Source: Nocardia ninae NBRC 108245 (GTDB lineage Bacteria > Actinomycetota > Actinomycetes > Mycobacteriales > Mycobacteriaceae). From it: DNA of 39,601 nt. Both the position numbers and the translations under genes were made by a program. The stretch is taken from the NCBI RefSeq assembly GCF_007990755.1, contig NZ_BJXA01000082.1, positions 1 to 39,601 on the forward strand, in the 5' to 3' direction. Under the pieces are notes generated by a model. That model was given only the letters and a program-made list of their open reading frames with translations, searched no databases and was not told where the DNA came from. The stretch's first letter is position 1. Each line of letters begins with the position of its first letter. Positions 9,029 to 29,258 of this stretch are shown piece by piece.

Positions 9029-12000
9029 GTGATGACACTTCACCGGCTGCATTCCGGTGACGGCTACGAGTATTTGACCCAGCAGGTCGCTACGGGCGAC
9101 CGCGTTCGGGATCGCACCCGTGACCTCACCGATTACTACACCGCGCACGGCTGCCCACCGGGCCAATGGTTCGGGCGCGGAGCCGCCGCGCTCGGTTTAT
9201 CGGGCGAGGTGACCGAACAGCAGATGCAATTATTGTTCGGCGAGGGAATGCACCCGGACGCGAACCGTATCATCACCGAAGCCTTGGCCGACGGAAAGAC
9301 CATTGCCGAGGCGATCGCCACCGCGAGTTTGGGTGCCAATTTCTATCAATTCTCCTCCAAAACGCCGATATCGGAATTGCTCGATCGGATGGTGGTCGCG
9401 TTCACCGAGAAGAACCAGCGGCGACCGACCTACGACGAACGGATGATGCTGCGCACCGAGGCCACCCGCACACACCTGACAGCTGAACTCGGCACCGAGC
9501 CGTCCACCGAGGCCATCGAGGACGCACTCGCCCAGGAGCAAGGAGAGTCGCGTAAGGCCGTCGCTGGCTTCGACTGCGTATTCACTCCGCAGAAATCGAT
9601 CGCGATCCTGTGGGGCTTGGCCGACGACGAGGTGCGCCGCGTCATCTGGGAATGCCACGAGGAAGCGATGCGCGAAATCCTGGAGTGGGCCGAACAGCGG
9701 TACGCGGTCACCCGCCGCGGCCACAACGGGGTTCGGCAGATCGACGCGAACGGGTTGACTGTCGCGTTGTTCCGTCACTACGACTCGCGCACGGGTGACC
9801 CGCTACCGCACACGCACGCCACGATATCGGCGAAAGTCGAAGGCAGCGACGGCAAATGGTCCTCGCTCGACGCTCGCCCGCTCTACGGCGGCGCGGTGGC
9901 GTTGTCGTGTCGCTACAACGCGATGATCGTCGGCAAGCTGCGTCGCCGTCTCGGGTTGCGGTTCGAGGAACGCTCCCGAGGTCGCGGCAAGCAACCGGTG
10001 CTCGAGATCGTCGGCATCTCCGATGCGATGATCGAGTTCTTCTCGAGGCGCCGCACAGCGATCATCGCCCGCACCGAACAACTCCTCGCCGCGTACCGGC
10101 GAGCACACGGCCACAATCCCGACAAGCGCGCCCAAGCCAAATTGGCACAACAGGCGACGCTGGAAACCCGGGACGCCAAAGCCGAACCACACAGCCTGCG
10201 CGACATGCTGGCAGGCTGGGATCGCCGAGTCCGCGCTTTCCTCGGCGACGGCCGCGACGCACAACGGTTCGTCACCGATCTCCTCGAACAACACCGGCTC
10301 GACGACCATCCGGCCGCGTTCGACGCCCGCCGAGTCGCCGTCGCCGCGGGCGTGGCCGTCGGCGGCGCAGCCGAAGTTCTGCGATCCGACGACACACACC
10401 TGAGCGCCGCGATCGAGCACGCCGTGGACGAATGCATCGGCCTGCACCCCGGCGACCGCACCCCGGCCATCGCGCAGGTTCGGGGACTGCTGCTGTCAGG
10501 CGACGATGACGAGTTGCTCGCCGACATCGACGAGGCATTCACCGCCACCCAGCGCACCGCATACGACCCGAAACGAATCGCCGAAGAAGTCGCTGCCACG
10601 GTCGCGCGACGCCGCGCGACCTGGACCGAAGCCAACATCTATTCCGCAGCCGACGAACGAGTCGGTCTGTGCGATTTCGACAGCGACACCGCGCAACGCG
10701 CCGCCGTCGAGGAAATCGTGCAAGCCGTCCGGGACGGACACAGCATCCAATTGACCATCGACCCGGACCCGGTGCCCGCGGCCATCGCGCGCCGCAACGG
10801 GGAAAGCGAATTCACCGTCACCGGCGCGATCCGCTACACCAGCGAAGAAGTCCTCGCCGCCGAGCACCGCCTGCTTGACGCAGCCAACACCGCCACCGAG
10901 CACTACCTGCCCCACGCCGCGGTCGCCGCGGCCATCGCCGAAGTCGAGCGGTCCCAACCTCGGCAGCGTCGCCGCCGTCTCAACGCCGCGCAGCAGGCGA
11001 TCGCGCATCACCTCTGCACCTCAGGGATGGCGTTGACCGCCGCCATCGGCCCCGCCGGCAGCGGCAAGACCACCGCGATGACGGTCGTCTCCCGCGCCTG
11101 GCAGGCCAGCGGACGGTCGGTGCTGGCGCTGGGTCCGTCGAAGAACGCGGCCCGCGAACTCGGCGACAGCATCGGCGTGCGCGGCTCCACCGTCGCCCGG
11201 GTCCTGACCCTGGCCAAGTACGGGCTGCCCACGGGAATCACCCCGGGCGCGATGCTGCTCGTGGACGAAACCGCGATGGCGGCCACCCACGACCTGGACC
11301 AGCTGCAACGGCTCGCCCGCCAGCACGGCGCGGTCGTGCGATGGGTCGGCGACCCGCACCAGCTGTCGGCCGTCGAGTCCGGTGGCGCACTGCGTCTGCT
11401 CGCCGCCGACACCCGCGCGCCGACGCTGATGACGATCGTCCGATTCAAGACCGCCGCCGAGGCCGCGGCCACACTGGCGGTCCGTGCCGGCGACGCGGAG
11501 GCGGCATGGAACTTCTACAGCGGTGCCGGACGGGTCACCTCCGGGATGGTCGACGAGCTGCGTGAGCGCATCCTGGCCGATCACCTCGCCGACATCGCCG
11601 CCGGGAAATCCTCGTTGATGCTCGCAGCCACCCTCGATGACGTCGCCACCCTGAACCTCGCCGCCCAAGCAGCACACACCGTGTCCGGACGTGTCGACAC
11701 AACGCGCGGCTCGGTCAGGTTGTCCGACAGCGCTGACGGTCATGTCGGCGACGTCGTGGTGACTCGTCTCAACGACAACCGGTTGCGGGTCACCGGCGGC
11801 AAACGCGGCGGCACCGGCATCGACAACGGCGACCTGTGGCGCATCCGGAAAGTGCACACCGACGGGTCGATCACCGTTCTCGGTGTCGATCACCGCGGCA
11901 GTGTGCGTCTACCGGCGGACTATGTAGCCGCCAACGTCGAGCTCGGCTACGCGTCCACCGTGCATCGCAGCCAAGGCAGCACCGTCGACCGATGTCGCCT

Positions 12001-13678
12001 GTTGATCAACGCCACCCTCGGCCGTGCCCTGGCCTACGTCGGGCTCACCCGCGGCGCGGAATCCAACCACATCTACCAGGCCCTCGACGCCCTCGACCCG
12101 ACCTGCGAGCAGCAGCCCGAAGACCCGATCACCGAACAACAAATGTTCGCAAAAGTCCTCGCCCGCGAGGACGACAATCTCACCGCCACCGAAACCATGC
12201 GACTCGAACAAGCCCGCATCGACGACCCGGCGCGGCTGCGCGGCATCTACACCCACATCACCGGGCTACTCACTGACGCCCGCGGCCGTCGCCTGCTCGA
12301 CCGGGCGCTGCCCGTCGTGCTCTATCGCGACGCCGAGACCTCCGACCGATTCCAAACGCTGCTCGACACGATCGCGCTGGCCGATCAGCATCGACTCGAC
12401 AGCCGTGCCCTCGTCGCCGACATCACCACCAACAACGGCGAGGACCTCGGCGACAGCCTGGCCACCGCCCGCGATGTGGCAGCAGTGCTGTGTGCTCGCG
12501 CCGACGACTGGATCGCACAGCATCTCACCCCCGCGACAGCAGCTGTGTCTACCTCGACCGACACCTTGACCGCGGACGCATCCAGCGACGCGACGCTGTA
12601 TGCCGCCGCTGCGGCCGTCAATCGCCGCGAAGTTCTCGCGCAATCGGGTCGGTTCAGTGCCCTGCGTGACGCTCCCGTCACCGGCTGTCCACCCGTACCC
12701 AGCCGTCATCCCGGCGTCGACACCGAACTTGCCGATCTTGCCGACGAACTCCGGAGCCGCCTCACCGGCGCCCACGGACCCGCTGCGCCGCTAGACGCCC
12801 CCGATCCCGAGTCCGGTCGAGACGACGTCACACGGCAGATGCGCATCCAACGCCTCAACCGGCTGCGTCACGACCATGAGCACTACATCAAGCAGCTGTC
12901 CGACGAGCGCGGACGGTACCTGCTGTACCGGGCGCTGCCGGTCGTGGTGTACGCCGAAGCCGCCCGCTCCCAGCATTTCGCCGCCCTGCTCGACGCGATC
13001 GCCCGCGCCGACGCCACCGGCCTGAACAGCAACGCACTGATAGGTTCGATCACGACCGACGACTTCACTGACTTCGGCACCGGGCTGCTGGAGACCCGAG
13101 ATCCCGGCGACCTGCTGGCCGGCCGCGCTCAACGATGGATCGCCCGCGAAACAGCAACCCAACGCACAGCCGCAGCTATCGCGGCCGGCACGGTGAACCT
13201 AGAAACATTGGCGCTCACCGACGACACATCCGCCATCGAACTCATCTCAACGGCAGACGCGGTAAACCGACTCACAGAGCACGCCGCACTCACCTCGGCT
13301 GGGACGCCACCCCCAACGCCGAGCCCTCCGCCCCCTCCGTTCCCCGGCATCGATCAACGTCTCGTGGATTTCGCCGCCGAGCTTCGACGGCGTATCGCGC
13401 GCGAGGAACGCGCGCTCCTCGACAGCGACCGCACTGCCGTTGATCCTCAAAGCGAAACACCTGTCGTCGGTCAGCCGGTAGAGGATCCTCGACATCCCGG
13501 CATCCACATGCCCTCTCCAACGCCCCACAGCTTCTCGACCCTGCCGCCGCATCGCGACGACGCGTCAATTGACGCGGAATCGCCGTCGGATGACGCCGCA
13601 CCGGATCCCCGGCGGCGTAGGAAACTCCTACGGCGACAGCGATCGTTGCCAGTTCGACATCGCCGCCGATCGTTGTAG
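9029..13678 (+). CDS. MobF-family conjugative relaxase-helicase (TraA/TrwC type)
   Basis: A 1549-residue protein from GTG 9029 (ATG 9032 is equally possible; GGGGGA lies 11 bases upstream). The TrwC relaxase domain spans about residues 1-400: a tyrosine pair (LTDYYTAHG, residues 36-37) for nicking and covalent attachment at oriT, and the metal-binding histidines H250 with HTH at about 261-263 (HYDSRTGDPLPHTHATIS). A helicase domain follows with Walker A GPAGSGKTT (about residue 674), Walker B MLLVDETAMA and motif III GDPHQLSAVESGG; YASTVHRSQGST is a later helicase motif. The C-terminal third contains two copies of a 200-residue unit and ends in a basic tail. The enzyme would nick, unwind and pilot the transferred strand. 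No coupling protein or secretion genes are in the window. Confidence 0.93.
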   Translation: MMTLHRLHSGDGYEYLTQQVATGDRVRDRTRDLTDYYTAHGCPPGQWFGRGAAALGLSGEVTEQQMQLLFGEGMHPDANRIITEALADGKTIAEAIATASLGANFYQFSSKTPISELLDRMVVAFTEKNQRRPTYDERMMLRTEATRTHLTAELGTEPSTEAIEDALAQEQGESRKAVAGFDCVFTPQKSIAILWGLADDEVRRVIWECHEEAMREILEWAEQRYAVTRRGHNGVRQIDANGLTVALFRHYDSRTGDPLPHTHATISAKVEGSDGKWSSLDARPLYGGAVALSCRYNAMIVGKLRRRLGLRFEERSRGRGKQPVLEIVGISDAMIEFFSRRRTAIIARTEQLLAAYRRAHGHNPDKRAQAKLAQQATLETRDAKAEPHSLRDMLAGWDRRVRAFLGDGRDAQRFVTDLLEQHRLDDHPAAFDARRVAVAAGVAVGGAAEVLRSDDTHLSAAIEHAVDECIGLHPGDRTPAIAQVRGLLLSGDDDELLADIDEAFTATQRTAYDPKRIAEEVAATVARRRATWTEANIYSAADERVGLCDFDSDTAQRAAVEEIVQAVRDGHSIQLTIDPDPVPAAIARRNGESEFTVTGAIRYTSEEVLAAEHRLLDAANTATEHYLPHAAVAAAIAEVERSQPRQRRRRLNAAQQAIAHHLCTSGMALTAAIGPAGSGKTTAMTVVSRAWQASGRSVLALGPSKNAARELGDSIGVRGSTVARVLTLAKYGLPTGITPGAMLLVDETAMAATHDLDQLQRLARQHGAVVRWVGDPHQLSAVESGGALRLLAADTRAPTLMTIVRFKTAAEAAATLAVRAGDAEAAWNFYSGAGRVTSGMVDELRERILADHLADIAAGKSSLMLAATLDDVATLNLAAQAAHTVSGRVDTTRGSVRLSDSADGHVGDVVVTRLNDNRLRVTGGKRGGTGIDNGDLWRIRKVHTDGSITVLGVDHRGSVRLPADYVAANVELGYASTVHRSQGSTVDRCRLLINATLGRALAYVGLTRGAESNHIYQALDALDPTCEQQPEDPITEQQMFAKVLAREDDNLTATETMRLEQARIDDPARLRGIYTHITGLLTDARGRRLLDRALPVVLYRDAETSDRFQTLLDTIALADQHRLDSRALVADITTNNGEDLGDSLATARDVAAVLCARADDWIAQHLTPATAAVSTSTDTLTADASSDATLYAAAAAVNRREVLAQSGRFSALRDAPVTGCPPVPSRHPGVDTELADLADELRSRLTGAHGPAAPLDAPDPESGRDDVTRQMRIQRLNRLRHDHEHYIKQLSDERGRYLLYRALPVVVYAEAARSQHFAALLDAIARADATGLNSNALIGSITTDDFTDFGTGLLETRDPGDLLAGRAQRWIARETATQRTAAAIAAGTVNLETLALTDDTSAIELISTADAVNRLTEHAALTSAGTPPPTPSPPPPPFPGIDQRLVDFAAELRRRIAREERALLDSDRTAVDPQSETPVVGQPVEDPRHPGIHMPSPTPHSFSTLPPHRDDASIDAESPSDDAAPDPRRRRKLLRRQRSLPVRHRRRSL

Positions 13679-13787: not shown

Positions 13788-14087
13788 ATGGGGCAGACGG
13801 GGCTGAGCGTCATCATTGCACTGGCACTTCTCCTAGCCTGGGCGCTGTATCCCGGTCTCGCGCGATTCCTCGCCATACTGCTCGTGATCGACTCCATCGC
13901 CTCTGTCTTCCTGTTTCCGTACAAGGCGCCGTTGGCCCATCTCGGCTGGCTTATCTTCGGCATCGCGCTGTGGCTTGCCAGCCATCGACGATTGGCCATC
14001 CGCCACCGCTCGTGGCGCTCCACCCTGGCCAAACGCGCCTTTCAACTACCGGGTCTGCGACATCTCCAGCCTCGCGCCCTGCCGTGA
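13788..14087 (+). CDS. Small integral membrane protein, paralogue of the one at 8025
   Basis: A 99-residue protein starting at ATG 13788 with AGAAGGGG 8 bases upstream. It has three hydrophobic segments (about residues 5-20, 24-43 and 50-67) and a basic tail (HRSWRSTLAKRAF). It is the same length as the product of 8025-8324 and aligns to it without gaps, keeping LYPxLAR, AILL, DS, FPxxAPxAHxGWL and GIxLWLA. The pair encloses the relaxase gene. Function unknown; membrane location is inferred from hydrophobicity. Confidence 0.78.
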   Translation: MGQTGLSVIIALALLLAWALYPGLARFLAILLVIDSIASVFLFPYKAPLAHLGWLIFGIALWLASHRRLAIRHRSWRSTLAKRAFQLPGLRHLQPRALP

Positions 14088-14208: not shown

Positions 14209-17200
14209 GTGGCTGAAATGGGGGAGCAGGGTCCGATTAGGCGGTTGCCGGTGGACAAGAAGAATGCCGGGCCGCTGACCGAAGCCTGGATCAGGTACGA
14301 GAAGCAAGCTGCTGCCTTGGGGCTGATTCGTGAACTGCTGCAACAGACCGATATCCAAGCGATCGCTCTGCAACACTCCTCAGACGCTATCCTGCTGTAC
14401 CGCGACCGGCGGCCGAAGCTTGTCTCAATCAAGCATCGCGAGCCTGACCAGAAGAACGACGACAGCGGCTGGAGCCGCCCGAAACTGAAGGAAATGCTCG
14501 GTGTTTTGTACCGCCAGTGGCTGGAGGCCGAGCAGGCGTGCCAGCTGGCTTTCTGGTCAAACGCCGGATTCGTCCGCGATGCACGCGACAATCACGCGCG
14601 TCTGATCGACGGGGCGACACCGTCGGCAGGTTTTCTGCATTGGCTGACTGCGACCGTCGGGGTCGCTCCAGAGCACTTGGACGCATTCGCGCGTGATCTG
14701 GAACTGCTCGCCGAGCCGCTGCCTCGCAGATTCGAGATCGATGCTGTCGGCGCGACGGCGGTGGCCGAGTTCCTGCGGCGTCATGGACGCGATTTCGCTC
14801 CGTTGTTTGCCCGAGAATGTTTCAACCTGTTGTGTGACCGCATTATCGAACTCAGCGCCCCGTCTCCCGCACCACCGTCGACCGATACTCGCAGAGACCT
14901 GGTGGATCGGCTGTACCCGCGCCTGGATGCCGGCGATGCGGCCCGGCTCGCGTTGAGGACACTCCCGGTGACCGAGGCCGAGGCGATCATGCTGAGAGAA
15001 CACGACCGCCGGTTGGCGACCAGAGTGCCCGATCCTGGATTCAGGTGGGAAGCCGACGATCGGTTCGTCGGTCGCGTCGCTGTGCTATCGCAGTTGACCG
15101 ACTTACTCGAACCAGGGGGCGTCACCGCCGTACCCCCGGTTTGCATATCCGGCATGACGGGCTGCGGAAAATCCAGCGTAGCAACACAATTTGCCGCACT
15201 CCACACTGATGCCCTGCGCCCGGTATTCATCAGCGCCAGTAGTCGCGCCGACGTAATCGCCGGACTGCAACAACTGGGTCAAACCGATGCCGGATCCCGC
15301 ATCGGCGATATCGCCGATGCCCGGACAGCGGTGACACCCGCCATGCCCGCGACGACGAGCTTGCTACTGATTCTCGACGGAGTGACCGACGCCGACGCCC
15401 TGCGTGGACTGATCCCTCGCCGGTCACTGTGCCGGGTGCTGATCACCACGACGGTGGCCAACCTCGACAGCGGATACCGCGAAGTGCGGCTCCACGCATG
15501 GGAGCCAGACGAAAGCCGCGCGTTTCTCGCCGATCATCTACCGCACGAGACTGCCGAAAACCGTGACCGCTTGCGGGCAGACCTGTACGACAATCCTTTA
15601 GCGCTCAATCAAGCCGTTGACCACTGTCACGTCCTTCGCCGCTCCGTCACCAGCTACCTCACCCGGCTACGAGAGGCTCCCGCGCACACATTGGCGCTGG
15701 GGAAGGCCACAGGGCATCCTGCATCGATCATCGAATCCATCAGGATGAATATCGAAGCCGTCGAAAGTACCTCGCCGGAAGCGCTGACCCTGCTGACCGT
15801 CCTAGCGTTCATGGGGCCCGCACCACTGCACGAGTCGGTGTTCGACACGGCGAGCCCGACTACCTCCGTCCACCCACCCACTGCCGCAGTCGACACCAAT
15901 GCCACACGCCGATGGCGGTCGCGCTTTCGACGCAAGCCGCCGCGTAGCCACTCGCAGACAATCCCACAAGCAACCGAACTTGCCGTCGAGATACGCAACA
16001 GACTGCACGACAAGAACTTCCGTGACCGAGCCACCGAGAACCTAGCGCGTATATCTCTACTCACAACGACCGCGGACCATCTCTCGGTCCATCCCCTAAT
16101 AGCACTGGCAATACTCGACCGAGTCACCGACGCGGCGCCCTGGCTGGAAGCAGGAATCAGCGTATTTCTGCCAACATCTGCAGCAGGCTCAATCACCGAC
16201 CCAATACCCAATCTCGACGAGAACCTCAGCGCCGCAACCCATATCACAGTCTCGGCTCTCGACCACGGCTACACAGGCCCGGGTCCGATCACGATGGCAG
16301 CACTCCTGTGTCACCGTCTCTCGCTGGTTGGCGCGAACGACTCCAGCGCCGAACACGGATGGACAGCCACCGAACTAGGTGAGTTCGCCATCAGCAATGC
16401 CATCAATCACGCGAATGTCACCACAGCCCCGATTTGGAAGCTGGCAGCCGCTCGCATGCAACTTCCTCTCGCGCAAGCACACTCCCTTGCCGGCCGGGTC
16501 GACGAGGCCCTCGCCGCAATCGACTCAAGCCTGATGTGGGCGCATGACCTGCGCAACCCACTATTGACTGCCGAGGCTGTGACGGCCGCAGAGCCCATCG
16601 TCACTATGCACGGCCGTCGCGATTTCGCAGAGCTGTTGCTGTCCCGGATCGAAGAACTGTCCGATATGGACTTCAACGTCCATTTCGCGGTGCAGATATC
16701 GACAACCCAGGCGCGCATCTTGCGGATGCTCAACCGCACCCAGGACGCCGCTGCTCTCTGCGATCGGACCCTCGATCTCATCTTTAGCAACCCCGAACAG
16801 CTGTCACCACAGGTGCTAGTTAATGCGTACAGTGCCGCCGCAATCATTGCCCGTGATCTGGGCACGACCTTGTCATCCTTCAAATTTGCGATGGCCATTG
16901 TCGACCTACAAAACCGACCCGACGTAGCGTCGCACTTCCCGCCGAGGGCGCGGATCGACCATCTACACCTCGCGGGCGACGCGGCCATCTCCACCGGAAG
17001 GTTCGAACAAGCACGTGAACTGATAGCCGAGGCTCGTGAGACAGCTGCTGAACACGGATTCGACAACACCTCAATCGTGTTCGCCGATACTCTCGCCATC
17101 GAAGGACGCCTCGCCCACATCACGGGTGATCTCGACCATGCGCGAGCCACCCTCAGACAGGCAATCACGATCCTAAAAGCGATGCCTGCCAGTTTCCGCC

Positions 17201-17928
17201 CCCGCCTGCCTGCGCCCCTGATGAATCTCGCAATTGTCTTACACGAGCTGGGTGAGTACGCCGAGGCCATGCGCTATGTGAGCGAGGCGCAGGCGATCGA
17301 CAGCGATATCTACACGTCCGATCACCCCGAAAGCAAACAAGATCAGCTTCTCCTGAATGCCCTCACCAACACCATCGATACGTCGGCCAACTCCGCCGAA
17401 TCACACTCCCTACTCAGCGTTCTGAATGCCTCCGGCAGGTCGGCCAGCACCCCTGCCGGCAACGGCAAAGTCGCCATCAACATCGTCCAAGTCCAACGCA
17501 ACATTCACGACGGACTGCGCGCGATCGGCACCAATCCCCGTCGCGAATGGACCATTTCGGATCTGATCGCCGCCGAGGAGCTGAATTTTCTATTTTACAC
17601 AATACCTTTCGGTGCCACTATTATCTCCACGACTCTGACATCCGTGCGGGAACTGCTGATAGAACGATTCGGCCCTAAGGGGGCCGCTCTCCGGCTACAC
17701 GAGAGTTTCGATATCAACACTGTCACTGCCCACCCGACTCACGTCGGCAAAGAAGCTCACGCCATCGCCATCGCTCTAATCAACGCCGCCCTAACCGAGG
17801 GTGCGGAAGCTGAGCCGGACCGCTCGCCCCTCGAAGGCCACAACGATCCCGACCTGCTCACCCATACATGGTTCGTCATTGTCGTAGCCTTCGCTTTCAT
17901 CAACGTCCTACTTCACGGTGGCGAATGA
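14209..17928 (+). CDS. DUF4297/Cap4-like nuclease - STAND NTPase - helical-repeat protein, candidate antiphage sensor (Avs-like)
   Basis: A 1239-residue protein from GTG 14209. Residues 20-210 resemble the DUF4297/Cap4 PD-(D/E)xK nuclease domain: a helix AWIRYEKQAAALGLIRELL, then Asp59 and SIKHRE with Lys75, the D-xn-(Q/S)xK core. A STAND/NB-ARC NTPase follows: P-loop GMTGCGKSS (residues 315-323), Walker B LLLILDG (385-391), RVLITTT sensor and a PLALNQA motif. Residues about 730-1060 are TPR-like helical pairs. The end carries a hydrophobic stretch WFVIVVAFAFINVLL (about 1219-1233). In known Avs proteins the repeat domain senses a phage protein and the nuclease then destroys DNA. The order of domains matches, but the activity is inferred. 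It stands alone as cargo between a membrane protein and an unknown gene. Confidence 0.7.
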   Translation: MAEMGEQGPIRRLPVDKKNAGPLTEAWIRYEKQAAALGLIRELLQQTDIQAIALQHSSDAILLYRDRRPKLVSIKHREPDQKNDDSGWSRPKLKEMLGVLYRQWLEAEQACQLAFWSNAGFVRDARDNHARLIDGATPSAGFLHWLTATVGVAPEHLDAFARDLELLAEPLPRRFEIDAVGATAVAEFLRRHGRDFAPLFARECFNLLCDRIIELSAPSPAPPSTDTRRDLVDRLYPRLDAGDAARLALRTLPVTEAEAIMLREHDRRLATRVPDPGFRWEADDRFVGRVAVLSQLTDLLEPGGVTAVPPVCISGMTGCGKSSVATQFAALHTDALRPVFISASSRADVIAGLQQLGQTDAGSRIGDIADARTAVTPAMPATTSLLLILDGVTDADALRGLIPRRSLCRVLITTTVANLDSGYREVRLHAWEPDESRAFLADHLPHETAENRDRLRADLYDNPLALNQAVDHCHVLRRSVTSYLTRLREAPAHTLALGKATGHPASIIESIRMNIEAVESTSPEALTLLTVLAFMGPAPLHESVFDTASPTTSVHPPTAAVDTNATRRWRSRFRRKPPRSHSQTIPQATELAVEIRNRLHDKNFRDRATENLARISLLTTTADHLSVHPLIALAILDRVTDAAPWLEAGISVFLPTSAAGSITDPIPNLDENLSAATHITVSALDHGYTGPGPITMAALLCHRLSLVGANDSSAEHGWTATELGEFAISNAINHANVTTAPIWKLAAARMQLPLAQAHSLAGRVDEALAAIDSSLMWAHDLRNPLLTAEAVTAAEPIVTMHGRRDFAELLLSRIEELSDMDFNVHFAVQISTTQARILRMLNRTQDAAALCDRTLDLIFSNPEQLSPQVLVNAYSAAAIIARDLGTTLSSFKFAMAIVDLQNRPDVASHFPPRARIDHLHLAGDAAISTGRFEQARELIAEARETAAEHGFDNTSIVFADTLAIEGRLAHITGDLDHARATLRQAITILKAMPASFRPRLPAPLMNLAIVLHELGEYAEAMRYVSEAQAIDSDIYTSDHPESKQDQLLLNALTNTIDTSANSAESHSLLSVLNASGRSASTPAGNGKVAINIVQVQRNIHDGLRAIGTNPRREWTISDLIAAEELNFLFYTIPFGATIISTTLTSVRELLIERFGPKGAALRLHESFDINTVTAHPTHVGKEAHAIAIALINAALTEGAEAEPDRSPLEGHNDPDLLTHTWFVIVVAFAFINVLLHGGE

Positions 17929-18205: not shown

Positions 18206-19114
18206 ATGACCGCTGAGAGCCGACTTGTCGCGCGAATTCCACGACGAGGTCGCGCAAGGGTGCAGTGGTTCGATCAGCTGGTTGAGGCGATACAGCTCGA
18301 TGCGCAGGCGCAGCGGCGCGATATGCGTATCAGCGGAGTCACATACATCAGCGGCGTACGGCCCGAAGAAATTGTGGATCCCGCGACGGCACAATTGCGC
18401 CCCCTGCCAGAGGATCATCCGCCGGTATACGTAGGACGGGACCGTAGTGAGGAGTCGATTAACCAGTATGCCGAGTGGGTCGTCGGTCTTGTCCGGTCGG
18501 CATTCGAGACCGAGATGCTCGACGATATCTGGGCCGGACCTGAACCGGTTGTCGTCGATGGTGTCACCTATGCCGGCGGCGTGGATGCTGTCTTCGGGGA
18601 GTTCTTCTGCGGCATCGGCTGGCAGGCCGTGTACCACAGGGGTGGCCCGGGGGACCACGCGTACTTCGTGATCGACGGTCAGGCACCTCTGATCGTGGAG
18701 GTAGGACTTCCGGATGTGTGGGCACGGATCGAGCAGATCAGTCAACTGGGGCTGTATCGAACTCTGGCGGATAGGCCACGGCTGCATGACGTACTGGTCT
18801 TGGGAAGTGAACCGGTGGATCCCGAACGGTCCGTAGCGTGGCCGGAGGACGCGATTCCGGCCGGTGTACTCGCCCAGAGGTTCGAGCCCGACCAGTGCGA
18901 CGACGTTTCCGACGATCTAGCTCCCCTCGACGCCGGATGGGTGTGCTGCACCAACTGTGGAAATGTCGCGGTTCATCACTGCGAGCAGAGCTTCCACGCG
19001 AGGCCCTGCGGCTGCTATGACTCCGGCGCCAACATCGGTGAACCCGACCGTGAGCTCCTCCGCGACGCCTGGAATTCCGCGCTGGACCACGTATTAGACA
19101 ATACCGAGCCGTAA
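18206..19114 (+). CDS. Hypothetical protein with C-terminal cysteine-rich zinc-binding region
   Basis: A 302-residue protein from ATG 18206 with AGGGGG 8 bases upstream. The N-terminal half is a soluble alpha/beta sequence with repeated Val-Asp-Gly-Val-Thr-Tyr motifs. Near residues 250-275 lies a cluster CCTNCGNVAVHHC followed by FHARPCGCYD, enough Cys and His for a zinc ribbon or knuckle. I do not recognise the family. Convergent with the next gene across 40 bases. It follows the STAND gene by 277 bases in which I see no gene and no strong signal, so it need not share its transcript. It may be an ordinary plasmid accessory gene or a partner of the STAND protein; nothing in the sequence decides. 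Confidence 0.65.
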   Translation: MTAESRLVARIPRRGRARVQWFDQLVEAIQLDAQAQRRDMRISGVTYISGVRPEEIVDPATAQLRPLPEDHPPVYVGRDRSEESINQYAEWVVGLVRSAFETEMLDDIWAGPEPVVVDGVTYAGGVDAVFGEFFCGIGWQAVYHRGGPGDHAYFVIDGQAPLIVEVGLPDVWARIEQISQLGLYRTLADRPRLHDVLVLGSEPVDPERSVAWPEDAIPAGVLAQRFEPDQCDDVSDDLAPLDAGWVCCTNCGNVAVHHCEQSFHARPCGCYDSGANIGEPDRELLRDAWNSALDHVLDNTEP

Positions 19115-19154: not shown

Positions 19155-20051
19155 TCACAGCCGTGCCTTTCGTTGATCTCGTGCACTTACCGTCTGGCGG
19201 CGTCGGTTCCTGCGTCGACTGCGTGCCGCGTCGGCGAGGCGAGCACTGATCGCGGCGGTTTCGAGTTCTCCAGCCGCGCTGGCAGCTCCGCGTGCCGTAG
19301 CGGCCAGGATCTCCGGATGATCGCACGCGCATATCCGAGCCTTCGCCGCTAACGCATCCAGGCGAGCTTGAAACGCACAGAGGTCTTCCACGATGTCGGC
19401 CGGCACGGTCAGCACGGGCAAATGCTCTCCGGCCCGCGCGTCGCCGCAGTAGGGGGCGCCGATAGCAAGGTCGCCGAGCATGTCGGTGACTCGTGCGTAG
19501 TGCGGGACGCCGACGCGACCGATTTCGCGGAGTTCGTTGCGGCGCCGGTGGTCTTGCCGGTACTCGACGGTCATCCATTCCCGATCGATCATGCCGACGG
19601 TCAGGATTCGGCCGGGTTCAGCGGGATCGGTGAACTCGATGCTGATGCCGCTTGCGAGGGCCTGGTCCAGCGCTTGGGCTGCCTCCGAGGCGGGATCACC
19701 GATGGCGGACCTCGTCCAGGCGGTGCGGGTCAGCTGTTGGGCGGGGCGAGCGGCCGTGATGGCCATCCGGATTGTGTCAGCGACCTCAAGGCCGGTGCCG
19801 ACACCGAACCGACGTACCGGTGCGAATTCTTCTCCGCTGGCAGATCGAGCGTAGACCGCTGCCGCGGCCAGGGCTGTTCCGGACGCCAACGTGTCGTCGC
19901 ATACACAGTCGTGCAGCCACATCAGCGCCTCGTGCAACGTGTCGAACTCAGCCCTGCTGGGTTGGGGTGTTTCCTGCGGCCGGGCAGGTTCGGCGAGGAT
20001 TGCGAATGCGGCGAGGTAGGAGATGGCTCGCCGAGGTTGTCTCGTGATCAT
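19155..20051 (-). CDS. Hypothetical protein overlapping the NRPS stop codon
   Basis: A 298-residue protein read from ATG 20051, with GAGGA 6 bases upstream; the longer frame to 20111 is a shadow of the NRPS. Its ATG and the NRPS TGA share the bases ATGA (20048-20051), an arrangement that usually gives translational coupling. The sequence is Ala/Arg-rich and helical, with Cys residues in short clusters ([15 protein letters not shown]) and a very basic C-terminal tail ([20 protein letters not shown]). I do not recognise it; nothing resembles a thioesterase, reductase or tailoring enzyme, and it reads more like an accessory gene of the plasmid-like half. Convergent with 18206-19114. Confidence 0.6.
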
Positions 20052-23000
20052 GACGGGTCCTCGATGGATGAGTCGGGTACGACCGCGTACTGCACCGGCA
20101 ACGGCGCCCACTGCGGCTGCAACCCCCGAGTCCGAGCTTCGTACGCGGTGCCCAGATCCTGTAGTAGCGGGGCGATCGACGAACCGTCTCCGGCGATGTG
20201 GTGGATCAACACCAGCAACACCAGTTCATCGTTATCGCTCCGGAACATGCTGCCGCGCACCGGAATCTCCGACGACAAATCGAATCGATACATCGCCGCC
20301 TCAACCACGGCCTGGCGCACATCCGCCGAATCGACATCGATGATCGGCACCGTCACATCGACCTCGCCGATATCGAGTACCCGCTGCACCGCCAAACCGT
20401 CGACCTCAGCGAACACCGTCCGCAAACTCTCGTGCCGAGCCACCACATCCGCCAGCGCGCCCGCCATCGCTCCACCATCGAACCCACCCGCGAGCCGCAC
20501 CGCGAAAGGAATGTTGTAAGTCGCAGACGGACCATCGAACCGGAACAAAAACCACAACCGCTGCTGCGCAAACGACAACGGCACCAACGCCGGACGCTCC
20601 TGCACCACCAACGCCGGACGAACACCCGACCCATCACTCAACCGGGCAGCCAACTCCGCCACCGTGGGTGCCTCGAACAACATCCGGATCGGCACCTCAA
20701 CGCCCAGCACCGACCGAATCCGGCTGATCACCCGCATACCCAACAGCGAATGCCCACCCAAATCGAAGAACGAATCATCGATACCGACATCCTCGACACC
20801 GAGGACCTCCCCGAACAACCCCGCCAGCGCCTGTTCACGCTCATTTCGCGGTGCCCGATATTCTCGTCCGGCGAATGCCGGTTCCGGCAGCGCCTTGCGA
20901 TCGAGTTTGCCGTTGGGCGTCAACGGCAACGCATCGAGCACCATCACCGCCGATGGCACCATGAACTCCGGCAACCGCTCACCCACAAAACGACGAACAC
21001 CCGCCGCATCCACCCCGTCGACCGCAGCGCCGGCAACCACATAACCGACCAACCGCTTGTCACCAGCCATACCGGCAACCTCACGAGCCATCACCGCGGC
21101 TTGGACCACCCCTGGATAAGCCAGCAGGGCCGCCTCGACCTCACCCGGCTCCACCCGGAACCCGCGAACCTTCACTTGCTCGTCGGCACGTCCGATGAAC
21201 TCCAACACCCCGTCGGCACGCCACCGCGCCACATCCCCCGTTCGATACATCCGCGACCCACCCCCCTCGAACGGATTCGCCACGAACCGCCCGGCGGTCA
21301 ACTCCGACCGCCCTCGATATCCCCGAGATACCTGCACTCCCGCCACATACAGTTCCCCCGCAACACCCACCGGAACCGGACGCAACCACGAATCCAGTAC
21401 GAACACCCGAGTATTCGGCAACGGAGAACCGACCACGCTCGAGGGTGACGTATAGTCGGACCAGCCGAGTTCCCGTTGGGTCACATGCACGGTTGTTTCC
21501 GTAATACCGTACATATTGATGAGACACGGACTGTCGCTACCGTCCACGTATTCGGCAATGGACTGTGGCGACAACGCTTCGCCGCCGAATATAATATACT
21601 CGAGCGCACCGAAATCAACCGAACCGTAACGGTCTACGAGCGTTTGAGCTATCGAGTGGAAGGCCGACGGAGTTTGGTTCAGGACGGTAACTCCGGCAGA
21701 TTGCACGTGCTGCCACATATCCATGGGCGAGCGGGATAACTCGCTCGAGAAGGCAACCACTTTTCCACCGGTCAGCAATGGGCACCATAGTTCCCAGACC
21801 GAGAAATCGAATGCCTGTGAATGTAGCCATGCCCATACCTCACGATCGCCGATACCGAACCACGCCGATACCCCGCCGATGAGATTGGTGAGATTGTGCT
21901 GGGTGACGGCGACGCCTTTGGGTCGCCCGGTGGAGCCGGAGGTATAGATCAGATAAGCGAGATTGTCCGGCCGCAGTGACACCCGCAGATCAACGCCCGG
22001 ATCAACGTCATCCGCGATCTCCGCGGGAAACACATACGCGGCATCGGTCACCGGCAAGACGTCGACGATGTCGCGGTTGGTCAGTACGACCACCGGATCA
22101 GCATCGGCGACGACGTAGGCCAGCCGCTCGGAGGGATATCCGGGATCGATCGGCAGATACGCGCCACCGGCCTTCAGCACCCCCAGCAACGCCACCACCA
22201 AATCCACCGAACGCGGCAACGCCACCGCCACAACCGATTCCGGCCCGACCCCATACCCGGCCAGCACCCGCGCCAACCGACCCGCCCGCTCATCGATCCG
22301 CCGATAACTCCACTCGACATCACCATCGACAACAGCCACTGCATCCGGTGACGCGGCAACCTGTCGCTCGAACAACTCCACCACCGTGGCCGGGGCGACA
22401 TCGACCGCGTTGTCGTTCCACTTCCGGAGAATCTGCCGACGGTCATCCTCGGCGAGGATGGCTACCTCGCCGACCCCCAGCTGCGGATCCGCGACCACCG
22501 CTTCCAGATACCCGATAAGCCAGCCTACGAGCCGATCGATATCGTCCAGCGAATACAGTGAGCTGTCTGCTTCGATCTGGATCTTCGCCGAACGATCTGT
22601 CGATCGCTGGTGCATGAACGACACCGCGAGTGGCTCCAACGAGCCGATCGTCAGCACCTCGAACGACACCGCATGGCCGTTCAGCTCCTGCACCGTGTCA
22701 GCCGAGATCACATTGACTACCGGACCGACGCCAGATCCTTTCAGCCAATCCCTGCCGCTGGCGCGACGAATACGCGACGACAAAAATCGCCCGTGCTGAG
22801 CAGCCGTTTCGATCTCTGTGCTCGCGTGCGCGATGATATCGGATAGACCGGCGGTGTCGTCGATCGAAAAATGAACGGGGATCATATCGGCGAGAGCGCA
22901 CGGAGTATCCCAGTCACTCGCCCGTCTATTTGCTATGGAAAGCTGAATGCAGAACGCGTCGCTGCCGGTCAGCCTATATACCAGACCGGCCGTCACACCG

Positions 23001-23782
23001 GCGATGAACTGCGGCACTGTGACGCCCATACCCTGCGCGGCACGCCGAATACCGCGGACCTGAGTTCGCGATATACCGGCGCTTTGACGAATGATTCTTC
23101 GCTCGCCGCCTTCCGCGCCGGCCGACGGAAGTTTCACGTCATCGAACCGGCCATTCGGTCGCGATTGCCAGTACCGTTCGTCATCGAGATAATCCGAGGA
23201 CTCGCGGTAGGTCAGATCCGCATCGACGATTTCGGACAGCCGACGGAACCTGGGCGGATCGATCGGCTGCCCCTCGAGCGTCTGCCCGTACGCCGCGAGC
23301 AAAGAGTTGACAAATACCCCGAGGCCGGAGCCGTCGATGATGATGTGATGGAAAACAAAGAAGATCAGTGTCCGTTGTTCCCCGATCTGCAGTATGACCA
23401 CATCGAAGAGCTGGTCGCCGGACAGATCGAAAATATAGCTTCGCGCCTCGTTCATCCACGCACGTGCCCGTAGCTCGGCGTCGGGGGCTGTTCGAAAATC
23501 AATAGCGCCCGGCATTGCCAGCTCCGATGGTTCCCGAAGGACCTGCGCACCCTCCAGACCATCGTTGACGATATTCACCGTCAACGCATCCGCAGCACCG
23601 ACGACAGCCGAGTACGCTCGATTCATCGCCGCCAGATCGACCTGGCCCGCAATGCCGACGAATCCCGATATGTTCATGGATACGCCGGGATCGAGCGACT
23701 GCGCAATCCAGATACCCTGCTGCACACCCGTCAAAGCAAAGGACTCGACGTCGCGACCTACAATACTCATCACACCCACCAT
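20048..23782 (-). CDS. NRPS, C-A(Thr)-PCP-C, second C domain truncated
   Basis: A 1244-residue protein from ATG 23782 (ATG 23770 is possible). The first condensation domain covers about residues 10-440 with an intact HHIIIDG active site. The adenylation domain (about 470-970) has [18 protein letters not shown] and [10 protein letters not shown]; its ten specificity residues read D-F-W-N-I-G-M-V-H-K, the classic threonine code. The PCP has GGHSLL, with the phosphopantetheine Ser codon at 20747-20749. A second C domain begins [10 protein letters not shown] and keeps HHIAGDG, but stops after about 180 of 450 residues at PLPVQYA, just where the family continues with Asp-Tyr. Eleven unrelated residues follow before TGA. 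There is no thioesterase, and MbtH is not in the window. It takes the chain from the PKS proteins upstream and would extend it by Thr. Confidence 0.93.
20077..20090. other. Dyad at the NRPS/plasmid-like DNA junction
   Basis: GTACG (20077-20081) and CGTAC (20086-20090) are inverted around ACCG. The centre lies on the last codon that still matches the C-domain family (Ala, 20084-20086). It could mark a recombination or insertion point, or be coincidence, since the GTACGC half is ordinary NRPS coding sequence. Confidence 0.35.
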
Positions 23783-23851
23783 CGCTCTGTTAGTAAATAC
23801 GCACGCCCTCTACCAAGGCCGATAACGCGATTGCCGACCGGCGGACAACCT

Positions 23852-26800
23852 TCAGGAGATTCGAGCTTCTCCTGCTGCGGACCCCACGAATTCCGATGGC
23901 TCATGGTGCCGCGAAATCTCCCGCGCCAGCTCACGAGCACCTTGCTGACCGAGCAGCGTGATCACGGGCAATCGCACACCCAATGCCTCGGTGAGCCTGT
24001 TCCTCAGGTTCATGGCGGTCAACGAGTCGAAGCCCCATTCCAGCAGCGACAAGTTCACATTCAGCACACTCGCATCGGAGTATCCGAGGATCTCACCGGC
24101 GATATCGCGGATCGTTCGCTCGATGAGTTCTTCGCGGTCCGCACCCACCAGGCGATGCCATTCGGATGGTATTCCGATCGCGGAGGTCGCACTCGGCAGA
24201 GGTTTCCGATGCGTTCCATGTACAGTTTTCAAGAGCTCGGATGAATTCGCATCGTTTTTCGCCAGTGCACCCGAATCAATTCGTATCGGTATAACGACGG
24301 GTCGGCTCGATTGCAACGCGCGGTCGAAGGCGGCGAGGCCGTCTCCCATTTTAAAACCCTGCACGCCCTTTCTTTTCAGGCGGCTCCAATGGGCTTCTTT
24401 CATTTCCGCAGCCAGCCCGACCGACTGCCACGGTCCCCACTCTATCGCCGTGGCCGGAAGTCCGAGCCCGCTCCGATGGTGCGCGAGAGCATCCAGGAAG
24501 GCATTGGCACTGGCATAATTCGCCTGCCCCTGAGCCAGCACGGTTCCCGCCGCCGAGGAGACGAGGACGAACAGATCCAGATCATCTTCTCTGGTCAGGT
24601 CGTGCAGATACCATGCCGCGTCCATCTTGGGCCGGAGTACATCCTCGAACCGCTGCTCGGTGAGCTCGGTGATCGGCGCATTATCGACTACCGCCGCCGC
24701 GTGAATTACGCCGGTCAGCGGTCCTCCGCGCCGTATCCAGGACAACAGATCGTGTATCTCGGATCGATTCGACACGTCACACGATCTGATGTGAACCTCG
24801 GCACCGAGATCGCTCAATTCGGCGCACAGTTCCGCGGCCCCGGGGGCCGCCATGCCCCGGCGGCTGACCAGAACCAGCTTCTCGACGCCATGCCTTTCCA
24901 CAAGACGGCGCGCAAACAGCGCACCGAGGCCATGCGTACCGGCGGTGACGAGGACAGTGCCGCCGGGATCCACGGCGCGCTCGGATCTTGCCGAACCCTC
25001 GTCGGAGCGGAGGCGAATCAGGGCGGGATAGTAGATGCCGCCAGCGCGAATTGCCAGCTCGGATCGACCGGTCGCGATGGCGCGGGGCAAAAGAATTCTC
25101 GCCTCTTCGCTGTCGTCGATATCGACGAGCTGGATTTTGCCAACGGCTTCCTGTTGCGCGGCTCGCACCAGGCCCCACACCGGAGCCTGCCAGAGATTCA
25201 CCTCGTCAGAATCCCGCACACAGACAGCACCATGTGTTACCACAACTGTCGTATCGTCAGCGACGCCGCCATCGGACTCTAGTTTCTTGATGAGGTTCAG
25301 TACGGAATAGAGATTCGAGCGTGCACCATCGAGACTTGCACCGTGCCCGTCCTCGCATTCGTGTACGGAGACATCGGCACTGTCGACTTCGAGAGCGGCA
25401 TTGGACGAGGATGACACGGGCCCCTGGATCGGCTCCGTTTCTTTCCACTCCAGGACATACATATCTCGGCCGATCCGCTTTGCGGAGTCGTCGAGTGCCT
25501 GTGCATGTATCTTTCGGCCATGTACCGATCGAACCGAAAATACCGGCTGATGATCTGGAGTGAAAGCGGTAATATCGTATCCGTCGGTACCGTTGGGACG
25601 GATCTCGGCGATCAGGCTTGTCGCATCGACCGCGTACAGCGCGAAATTCTGCCACAAGAACGGCACAATCATCTCGCTGCGATCCGCCCCGGCTGCTATC
25701 AGCGGGTGAAAGATCGAGTCCAGCAACGCCGGATGAAGCCCATATCTCGGGGCATCGGAGGACAGGTGGTGCGGCAGCGAGCTTTGCACAAAGATATCCG
25801 CACCTCGGCGCCATACCGCCTGCACGCAGTGGAAAGTCGGTCCGTACGCATAACCCCGGCCGAGCAACTCGTCATACAAGCCGGCACAGTCGACTGGTGT
25901 CGCCTCGGCCGGAGGCCATGGTGACGGCGGTACCGAGCGCGGGTCGGGGACGCTACCGAGGACCCCTTCCGCATGCAAGGTCCAGGATGCACTGTCGAGC
26001 ACCCGGTCGTCGTCCACCCGGGAATAGATTCGCACCGAATAACCACCCTGGTCTGCGGTACTTTCGACCCGGACCTGGACTGCCACGATATCCCCGGAAC
26101 GAACTGTCAACGGCGATATCAACGTGAGATGACGAAGAGCGGTGCAACCGACTTCGACCCCCGCACGCATCGCCAGTTCGACCAGACCTGTTCCCGGCAT
26201 GACCACGACTCCGGCGATGACGTGGTCTGCCAGCCACGGCTGCGCCAAAGGCGACAACCGGCCCGTCAAAATCACGCCATTCGTTTCCGGATTCGCGATC
26301 ACCGCGGCCAGTAGCGGATGATCCGTCGGCATCAGGCCCAACGAACGTGCGTCGATATTCGTATGACCGCTGTCGATCCAGTAACGATTTCGCTGGAAGG
26401 CATACGTAGGGAGGTCGACACGCGAAGCGCCGGCCCCGGACAAAACCGCCGACCAGTCGACATCGATACCGGATGTGTCCAACTTCGCAAGCGTCGATAA
26501 AAGGTCCGGCACTTCAGGCTTGTTTTCCTTCGGCATCGTCGACGCAACCATAATTTGGTCCGACTGGACCGTGTTGTCCACCGAGACGGTCAACCCGGAA
26601 GCCGGGCCGATTTCGATGAACCGGATACACCCTTCGCGTTCCAAAAACTCGACCCCGGCACCGAAACGCACGGTCCCACGGGCCTGCTGTGCCAGATATT
26701 CGGGCCGAGCATACGCATTGGGATGAATTTTGCCGTCGATATTGGATACCACCGGAATCGCGGGCGCGGCGGACACCAGACCATCGACCAATCTGGTGAA

Positions 26801-29155
26801 ATCCGGCAGAATAGGATCGATCAACGACGAATGGAATGCGTTCGATACCCGTAGCCTGACCGTTCGGTGACCCAATTCCCGGAGACGCTTCGCGACCGCA
26901 TCCACAGCATCAGACGTGCCGGAAATGACCACCGATTCGGGCGCGTTCACTGCGGCCACGTCCACATCTTTGCCCAGCAGAGGGACGATTTCCTCCTCGT
27001 CTGCCGCGACGGCGATCATTGCGCCACCGTCCGGCAAGGCGTCCATCAGCCGGCCGCGGGCCGCGACCAGTGTGGCGGCATCATCGAGGGACCACACGTC
27101 GGCCAGGAAGGCCGCGGTGATTTCTCCTATGGAGTGACCGATCAGGTAATCGGGTTTCAGACCGAAACTTTCGACCAGCCGACACAGCGCCACTTCCACC
27201 GCGAACAGCCCCGCCTGGGCAAACACCGTCCGGTTCAGTAGGTCCTCGTCCGCCCCCCACACCACCTCTTTCAGCGAGCAGTCCAACCGCTCGTCCAGCT
27301 TCGTGACGACTTCGTCGAAGGCCGCCGCGAAGACTGGAAAGACGGCATGCAGGTCACGTCCCATACCGAGGCGCTGGGCACCCTGACCGGGGAACACGAA
27401 CGCTGTCTTACCCGGCGCGGCCGCCGAGCCCCGGGCCGCATCCGCGCCAGGACGGTGCTCCACCGTCTCGGACAACCTCGCCAGCAATTTCTCGCGGTTG
27501 GCGCCCAGAACGACTGCTCGATGGTCGAACCTGGATCGCTCGGTGGCCAATGACCAGCCGATATCGGCCGCGTCCAGCTCTGGGTGTGCCCGAACATGCT
27601 CGGCGAGCCGGCGAGCCTGTGCCGTCAGCGCCTGCGGGCTCCGTGCAGAGACGACCCACGGAAGCAACGGCAACGGCGGCCACGCCGAATCATTACCGCC
27701 CGAACCACGTTCGCCGGGCGCATCCGAGTTCTGTTCGGCAGGCGCCTGTTCCACGATGACGTGTGCGTTGGTGCCACTGATCCCGAAGGACGACACCCCC
27801 GCACGCCGGGGCCGACCATGGTCCGGCCACGGCAGGGCCGCATTGGCCACCCGCACCGCACCGGACGACCAATCCACGTGTGGCGTCGGCTCATCCACAT
27901 GCAGCGTCGGGGGTACCACGCCGTGCCGGATCGCCTCGATCATCTTGATGATGCCCGCCACTCCTGCGGCAGCCTGGGTGTGACCCAGGTTCGACTTGAC
28001 CGAACCCAGCAGCACGGGGCCGTGCTGCCGGGCACCTCCGAAGACCTCGATCAGCGAGGACGCCTCGACCGGGTCGCCGAGTCTGGTACCGGTTCCGTGC
28101 CCCTCGATGACGTCGATATCGTCGGGGCTCAGTCCACTGTTCGACAGGGCCTGCCGAATCAAGCGCTGCTGCGCCCGGCCGTTCGGCGCGGTCATTCCGT
28201 TGCTCGCGCCATCCTGGTTGACCGCCGAACCGCGCAGCACGGCCAGCACCCGGTGCCCCAGTCGCCGGGCGTCCGACAACCGCTCCAGCACAAGCACACC
28301 CGCGCCCTCGGAGAAGCCGGTGCCGTCGGCGGCGGCCGCGAACGATTTGCACCGACCATCCGGTGCGAGACCACGCTGCCTGCTGAACTCGACGAACGTG
28401 GCCGGTGTCGACATCACCGTGACCCCGCCGGCCACCGCCATCGAGCACTCACCCTGCCGTAATGCCTGTACCGCCTGATGCACTGCCACCAGCGACGAGG
28501 AGCACGCGGTATCCACCGTCACCGCGGGACCTTCGAACCCGAACAGGTAGGAGACACGTCCCGACAGCACGCTCGCCGCGGTCCCCGTACCCAGGTGCGC
28601 CGCCGACTCCGGTGGCACCGCGCCCGGCCGAGCACCGTAGTCGTGGTACATCGAGCCGACGAACACACCACAATCACGACCACGCAATGCAGCTGGATCT
28701 ATCCCCCCGCGCTCGAACGCCTCCCACACCACCTCGAGCAGCACACGCTGCTGCGGATCCATCGCCGCCGCCTCATGTGGCGAAACACCGAAGAACCCCG
28801 CATCGAAATCGGCTGCATCACCGAGAAAACCACCCGACCGAGCATACGAACGACCGGCCGCCTCCGAATCCGGACCGAACAGCTCGGCCAGATCCCAGCC
28901 GCGATCGGCAGGGAACCCGGAGATGACATCGGACTCGGCGGAAAGCAGTCGCCACAAACCCTCCGGAGAATCCACACCCCCCGGAAAACGGCACCCCACA
29001 CCCACAATCGCGACCGGCTCACTCGTGGCGGCGAGAAGTGCCCGGTTGCTCGTACGCAGTCGGGCGTTCTCCATCATCGACGCGCGTAGCGCCGCTTCCA
29101 GTTTCGCTGAGGTATCACTCATGTCACCACGCCTCGATCCATTGTTCTGCAACAT
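23852..29155 (-). CDS. Type I modular PKS, one module KS-AT(malonyl)-DH-KR-ACP
   Basis: About 1767 residues. ATG 29155 is favoured (GAGGGG 8 bases upstream); GTG 29164 and ATG 29122 are alternatives. A short N-terminal coiled-coil docking segment ([17 protein letters not shown]) precedes KS, with active Cys in DTACSSSL (codon 28502-28504) and the EGHGTGT and KSNLGHT histidines. AT has catalytic Ser in GHSIGE (27131-27133) and NAFH, close to the HAFH of malonyl-CoA-specific domains. DH has [10 protein letters not shown] (His codon 26222-26224). There is no ER. KR has a TAGTHGLG nucleotide-binding loop and NYASANAF tyrosine; VDN stands in place of LDD. ACP has GFDSL (Ser 24024-24026). One round adds C2 with an alkene. 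It ends 69 bases before the NRPS, the likely acceptor of the chain. Confidence 0.93.
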
Positions 29156-29183
29156 AAAACTCACCCCTCGTATCCATGAAGGC

Positions 29184-29208
29184 CGGACGGCTCGTGCCAG
29201 ACCGTCCG
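29184..29208 (-). promoter_or_regulatory. Hairpin between the two PKS genes
   Basis: CGGACGG (29184-29190) and CCGTCCG (29202-29208) form a 7-bp stem with an 11-base loop in the 95-base gap between PKS genes. There is no T-tract on either strand. It may only modulate message levels or processing. Confidence 0.3.
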
Positions 29209-29258
29209 CGCGCTCGGCCGGTCACGGATGCGGCCGTAGCGGTTTCGACGGCGGGGCA

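Follow-up and report, generated by a model that had tools for sequence, protein, structure and literature searches.

The window analysed here is a stretch of 39,601 nucleotides from Nocardia ninae NBRC 108245 (assembly GCF_007990755.1) and is the entire contig NZ_BJXA01000082.1 (C82) of its assembly. An open reading frame (ORF) at 14209-17928 on the forward strand starts with GTG (alternative in-frame ATG at 14218) and encodes a nuclease domain, a STAND-type AP-ATPase core and tetratricopeptide repeats (TPR). A first-pass annotation, made from the letters alone, had described this gene as an actinobacterial, plasmid-borne relative of the Avs antiphage proteins. The features of the gene are as follows:

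14209..17928, + strand: whole gene, Cap4/LmuA-type nuclease - AP-ATPase (STAND) - TPR protein, 1239 amino acids (Pfam; full-length ortholog, 87% identical; ratio of non-synonymous to synonymous substitution rates, dN/dS, 0.21)
14266..15048, + strand: PD-(D/E)xK nuclease domain of Cap4/LmuA/HamA type, about residues 20-280
14371..14373, + strand: Gln55 (in aligned rows, Glu in 28/33 and Gln in five Nocardia rows)
14383..14385, + strand: Asp59, candidate active-site Asp (14/14 rows of alignment A5)
14422..14442, + strand: VSIKHRE, residues 72-78, SxK motif (Ser73, Lys75) at the QxK position
15061..15888, + strand: NB-ARC/AP-ATPase STAND core, about residues 285-560 (AAA_16, NB-ARC, NF040586, invariant columns)
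15151..15174, + strand: P-loop GMTGCGKS, residue 315 (invariant columns)
15361..15381, + strand: Walker B / kinase-2 LLLILDG, residue 385 (invariant columns)
16087..16101, + strand: MHD-like motif VHPLI, residue 627 (H and L invariant in 7 rows)
16225..17364, + strand: TPR superhelix, about residues 673-1052, putative sensor (Pfam TPR, structure model)
17365..17925, + strand: C-terminal region, about residues 1053-1239 (low-confidence model, predicted local distance difference test mostly <50; dN/dS 0.275)
17857..17913, + strand: hydrophobic C-terminal helix, residues 1217-1235 (Kyte-Doolittle 2.12 over 19 residues)

The full-length ortholog was found in another genome of the same genus (G035). 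Between the two copies, dN/dS was 0.211 for the whole gene, 0.197 for the nuclease, 0.123 for the ATPase, 0.297 for residues 561-640, 0.234 for the TPR part and 0.275 for the C-terminus; the neighbouring genes gave 0.268 (relaxase), 0.201 (ParB-like), 0.128 (ORF 3136) and 0.085 (methylase). Together with the shuffle controls below, the ortholog and its dN/dS confirmed that the ORF and its nuclease domain are more than chance.

The predicted structure of the N-terminal domain (from an 11-row alignment) matched the Cap4-type PD-(D/E)xK fold, including residues 20-210, and with the profile matches of the relatives it bore out the annotated Cap4 (DUF4297)-type N-terminus. PF14130 was matched by 3 of the 7 rows of alignment A1 (best 4.7e-6) and same-architecture Streptomyces proteins exceeded its cut-off; the relatives' nucleases had their best match in the Lamassu LmuA models. 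The window domain scored 37.1 bits against a profile built from six Streptomyces relatives alone, with 0 of 2000 shuffles at E ≤ 1. With a Nocardia-built profile the E ≤ 1 limit was passed by nine shuffles, the highest at 8.0 bits, against 31.7 bits for the lowest-scoring relative. Among PDB sequences, a 14-row profile recovered HamA (8zue) at 7.5e-4, the remaining matches being chance; one QxK relative used as query reached HamA at 0.085 at best, and a 7-row profile gave chance antibody matches alone.

The active site motif of Cap4 is D...QxK, and HamA carries QVK at the QxK position. In the window protein the Asp and Lys were kept and the Gln was replaced by Ser, as annotated. Asp59 and Lys75 were invariant in alignment A5, in which position 55 was Glu in 12 of 14 rows, and SxK was counted in 27 of 33 aligned rows (QxK in 6). 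From this 33-row count, 11 of the 29 profile-search matches were left out: L063, L071 and L072 (same places as L094, L092 and L093), L070, L075 and L079 (SxK; a broken copy, a near-duplicate and a partial match), L088, L089 and L091 (duplicates of the QxK rows L081, L082 and L090), L086 (a fragment lacking the Lys) and L069 (no motif; from G586). L057 and L060, from a pattern scan, were also absent from the tree. That scan was seeded with VS[IV]K, so its 10 loci are no witness of Ser conservation; the hidden Markov model (HMM) searches can be one, though their profile also favours Ser. The Ser had been proposed as a distinguishing mark, but this gene shares it with Lamassu-like and kinase-fused relatives.

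In the STAND core, AAA_16 (9.2e-7) and NB-ARC (2e-4) matched within about residues 285-454, both slightly under the curated Pfam cut-offs (NB-ARC 21.1 vs 23.5 bits; relative L093, 36.2 bits). A P-loop, a Walker B, a GLPL-like and an MHD-like motif were present, with invariant columns in 7 rows. The closest NCBIfam model was FxSxx_TPR (NF040586) at 176.2 bits, under its equivalog cut-off of 300; the relative L059 scored 292.5 bits. These matches and the invariant columns agreed with the annotated STAND NTPase, and the motifs that had been named (Asp59, SIKHRE, P-loop, LLLILDG) all lie in the ORF. The TPR-like helices were recovered as Pfam TPR_2 (3.2e-10) and TPR_12 (3.5e-8), within residues 919-1049, and as a helical superhelix in the structure model. 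The hydrophobic C-terminal stretch is present (2.12 at residue 1217); its Kyte-Doolittle value ran from 2.41 down to 0.99 across five Nocardia copies and it is therefore unsafe as the distinguishing mark it was taken for. That it might anchor the protein in the membrane is a weak suggestion. In an Actinoplanes nuclease-STAND protein (L054 9286-9666), residues 1113-1239 give an additional AAA_22 ATPase match at the C-terminal place where the Nocardia proteins carry this tail.

PADLOC includes Avs models. The window protein had no PADLOC match at E ≤ 0.1, five same-architecture relatives had no Avs match at E ≤ 0.01, and the whole protein as query found no Avs chain among PDB sequences at E ≤ 1. 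The tripartite Avs layout (N-terminal effector, STAND ATPase, C-terminal repeats as presumed sensor) was found. Kinship with Avs was not borne out: the protein had no sequence match to Avs1-Avs4, its core was nearest the FxSxx AP-ATPase and the relatives' nucleases best fitted LmuA; the chain is also about three fifths as long as Avs3 (1239 vs 2028 residues). A remote kinship may exist despite the absent match. The protein is classed outside Avs, as a putative new variant among the NLR-like STAND defence proteins.

Other known systems differ in their build. In Lamassu, an LmuA with a Cap4-type nuclease is paired with SMC-like LmuB, whereas the window protein carries its nuclease on a STAND-TPR body of its own and no LmuB or SMC-like match was found among the scanned window genes. 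Unlike CBASS Cap4 (PF14130) and HerA-DUF4297, the window protein has SxK, not QxK, and no SAVED domain or HerA partner was seen. The AP-ATPase of FxSxx-COOH systems (FxsT, NF040586) has the closest STAND core and C-terminal TPRs, but an N-terminal TIR domain is described for it (PMC7159879) in place of the nuclease. bNACHT25 and bNACHT32 likewise join an N-terminal PD-(D/E)XK DNase to a STAND core (PMC12169576), but with a NACHT core and an NCH1 C-terminus instead of AP-ATPase and TPRs. Among the open-access matches listed, covered by title and start of abstract, no paper on a Cap4-type nuclease fused to AP-ATPase-TPR was found (subscription papers, preprints and supplements lay outside this search). 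The main text of an actinobacterial defence survey (PMC10482375) does not mention AVAST, Avs or STAND.

Searches with the N-terminal domain or profile gave 6 of 150 genomes in the genus (own included; G149 with a 30-residue match alone) and 4 of 397 in the order. The latter were the window's own genome, G381, and G389 and G468, which were set aside as spurious because their ORFs looked, on inspection by eye, like unrelated secreted proteases. At least 8 of 394 genomes matched in the class (own and the motif-less G586 included) and at least 20 of 295 in the genus of G605 (inferred Streptomyces), both being lower bounds because these HMM searches scored no more than the top 6 and top 8 candidates of each genome, respectively; the family of G829 gave 2 of 35. 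The pattern-seeded contig scan gave 13 pattern matches, of which 10 were relatives (Nocardia 2, Actinoplanes 3, Catenuloplanes 1, Streptomyces 4), and viral contigs gave one pattern match and no relative. A copy on a Rhodococcus plasmid is truncated at an IS3 element, a Nocardia plasmid holds a remnant that keeps a stretch of the TPR part, the match is scattered over several frames in G177 and G165 and ends early in L057 and L060/L095. L094 ends near a contig end, where intactness cannot be judged.

The nuclease module was also found in other settings. It is fused to ATPases of the nSTAND1 (L081) and nSTAND5 (L087) types and to protein kinase domains (L056 5971-7515 and L058 5959-7569, with SxK; L082 1-2157, with QxK); the kinase fusions could represent a kinase-gated nuclease defence architecture. 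Short stand-alone proteins occur as well, and L065 matches LmuA almost end to end. In the three short-protein loci read (SxK nucleases with SMC-like ATPases: L103 6511-10464, L104 4524-8182, L105 6900-10548), a P-loop ATPase ORF adjoins each nuclease, laid out as in Lamassu. These ATPases exceeded the AAA_23 cut-off (28.2-36.0 vs 27 bits), a match that is weak by itself because the family was matched at 30-44 places in each genome. By layout the three loci appear Lamassu-like.

Two further features lie upstream of the gene:

9029..13678, + strand: TrwC-type relaxase of the carrying element (PF08751, 3.7e-81; conserved with the gene in G035)
13788..14087, + strand: small hydrophobic ORF of 99 amino acids between relaxase and gene (88% conserved in G035; no Pfam match)

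The adjoining relaxase agrees with the annotated plasmid-borne setting. ParB-like and cytosine methylase genes also lie to the left of the gene, and window positions 1-19 kb aligned with G035 C1 752-782 kb at 86-90% nucleotide identity (long pieces), relaxase and gene together. The 99-residue ORF has a second, 48% match in G035 on the other side of the relaxase, and a 302-residue protein without Pfam match (18206-19114) has an 84% identical counterpart in G035, lying immediately after the nuclease-STAND gene. From 20 kb onwards, non-ribosomal peptide synthetase (NRPS) and polyketide synthase (PKS) genes follow on the other strand (20048-39590, -); they start just beyond the backbone common to G035, and the NRPS gene ends 2.1 kb downstream of the gene. 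The NRPS and the first PKS had no match in the G035 stretches examined, which keep the gene, and may therefore be particular to the window's element. Nine other loci compared had no match to the remaining window genes, and no conserved partner gene was found among the compared loci outside the G035 element. Near the intact Nocardia speluncae copy lies a VWA_CoxE-domain protein (L045 9625-11931); vWA proteins are described as parts of conflict systems (PMC7159879).

By analogy with characterised systems, the gene probably encodes a single-gene, NLR-like defence protein that kills or arrests the infected cell. This reading starts from the predicted fold, the motifs and a nuclease common to Lamassu-like loci. 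The TPR coil, probably together with the C-terminal part, would keep the protein inactive and recognise an invader protein or a host infection signal. The AP-ATPase core would then exchange nucleotide and oligomerise, as STAND proteins do, and the nuclease domains would pair as active dimers that cut double-stranded DNA, that of the host included, so that cell death or arrest stops the invader; these last steps are modelled on Avs3, HerA-DUF4297 and Lamassu. Judged by its anatomy, the protein would be expected to act like Avs3. Avs3 forms tetramers in which its Cap4 nucleases pair up, and a DUF4297 nuclease cuts double-stranded DNA without specificity for phage DNA (PMC11291478). Many Lamassu LmuA proteins contain Cap4 domains and are believed to destroy the infected cell (PMC10586767), bNACHT25 and bNACHT32 depend on their DNase (PMC12169576), and antiviral STAND proteins are tripartite, with nuclease effectors in Avs1-Avs4 (PMC10907252, PMC12931631).

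Several observations weigh against a defence nuclease. The window nuclease domain (first 280 residues) had no Pfam match even at E ≤ 10, PF14130 included, and matched no PADLOC model; its link to Cap4 is a predicted one that runs via the relatives and the 11-row model. The two active-site departures, Ser in place of Gln and Gln55 where Glu is usual, could make catalysis weaker. Among the scanned window genes (ParB-like, methylase, relaxase, NRPS/PKS, unassigned) no known defence gene was found. At five other loci, the ten neighbouring proteins examined had ordinary assignments or none: a lipase, a BTAD/Trans_reg_C regulator, the VWA_CoxE protein, an IS4-type transposase, a protein with HEAT repeats, an amidohydrolase, a pair of GntR regulators and two proteins that matched nothing.

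The same machine may instead target rival plasmids or conjugative elements entering the cell, not phages, so that its carrier excludes competitors, which we consider unlikely. Lamassu and Wadjet act against plasmids, and such a target would suit the nuclease common to Lamassu-like loci, the position beside a relaxase in the backbone common to G035, and the truncated copy and remnant on two plasmid records. However, none of the nine compared loci matched another window gene, so the association with this element does not hold in general, and phage defence is usually plasmid-carried too. It is somewhat less likely again that the nuclease fold is dead and binds DNA only, the protein being a STAND regulator of conjugation or of the adjoining biosynthetic genes. 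Ser73 and Gln55 depart from the usual residues and the NRPS gene ends close by, but Asp59 and Lys75 are invariant, SxK recurs in short proteins beside SMC-like ATPases as in Lamassu, the G035 stretches keep the gene without an NRPS/PKS match, and Pfam found no DNA-binding regulator domain. We give little credence to a more elaborate reading, a membrane-anchored one-gene NLR of a conjugative element, whose TPR coil and hydrophobic tail would recognise incoming rival DNA at the envelope and whose Lamassu-type SxK nuclease would answer, Ser73 and Gln55 altering how or what is cut; it would belong to a separate, uncatalogued actinobacterial NLR lineage, in which Lamassu-type nucleases had been joined repeatedly to STAND ATPases and to kinases. 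Membership in an FxSxx-COOH peptide-modification system, with the nuclease replacing the TIR domain of its described AP-ATPase (PMC7159879), is very improbable: NF040586 is the best match of the core but at 176 of the 300 bits of its equivalog cut-off, and no radical-SAM or peptidase partner was seen among the neighbouring ORFs scanned with Pfam (part of the neighbours, with no search dedicated to FxSxx). A SARP/AfsR-type transcriptional activator merely resembling a defence protein was rejected as scarcely credible, its weak AfsR match (29.6 bits vs a cut-off of 1430) standing against the absence of Trans_reg_C and BTAD matches at E ≤ 0.1, FxSxx_TPR at 176 bits, an N-terminus that models as a nuclease and a core tree with the SARP-type cores on a separate 100/100 branch.

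Read as an NLR-like defence protein, the gene would add to the actinobacteria an architecture with an LmuA/Cap4-type nuclease on an AP-ATPase-TPR body, and PADLOC was blind to the window protein. Nucleases from Lamassu-like loci, from kinase fusions and from STAND proteins are linked by the SxK variant that they share, so that tolerance of the QxK Gln position becomes testable. Finally, the place of the gene in a relaxase-bearing backbone raises the question whether plasmid NLRs may act against phages or against other plasmids.
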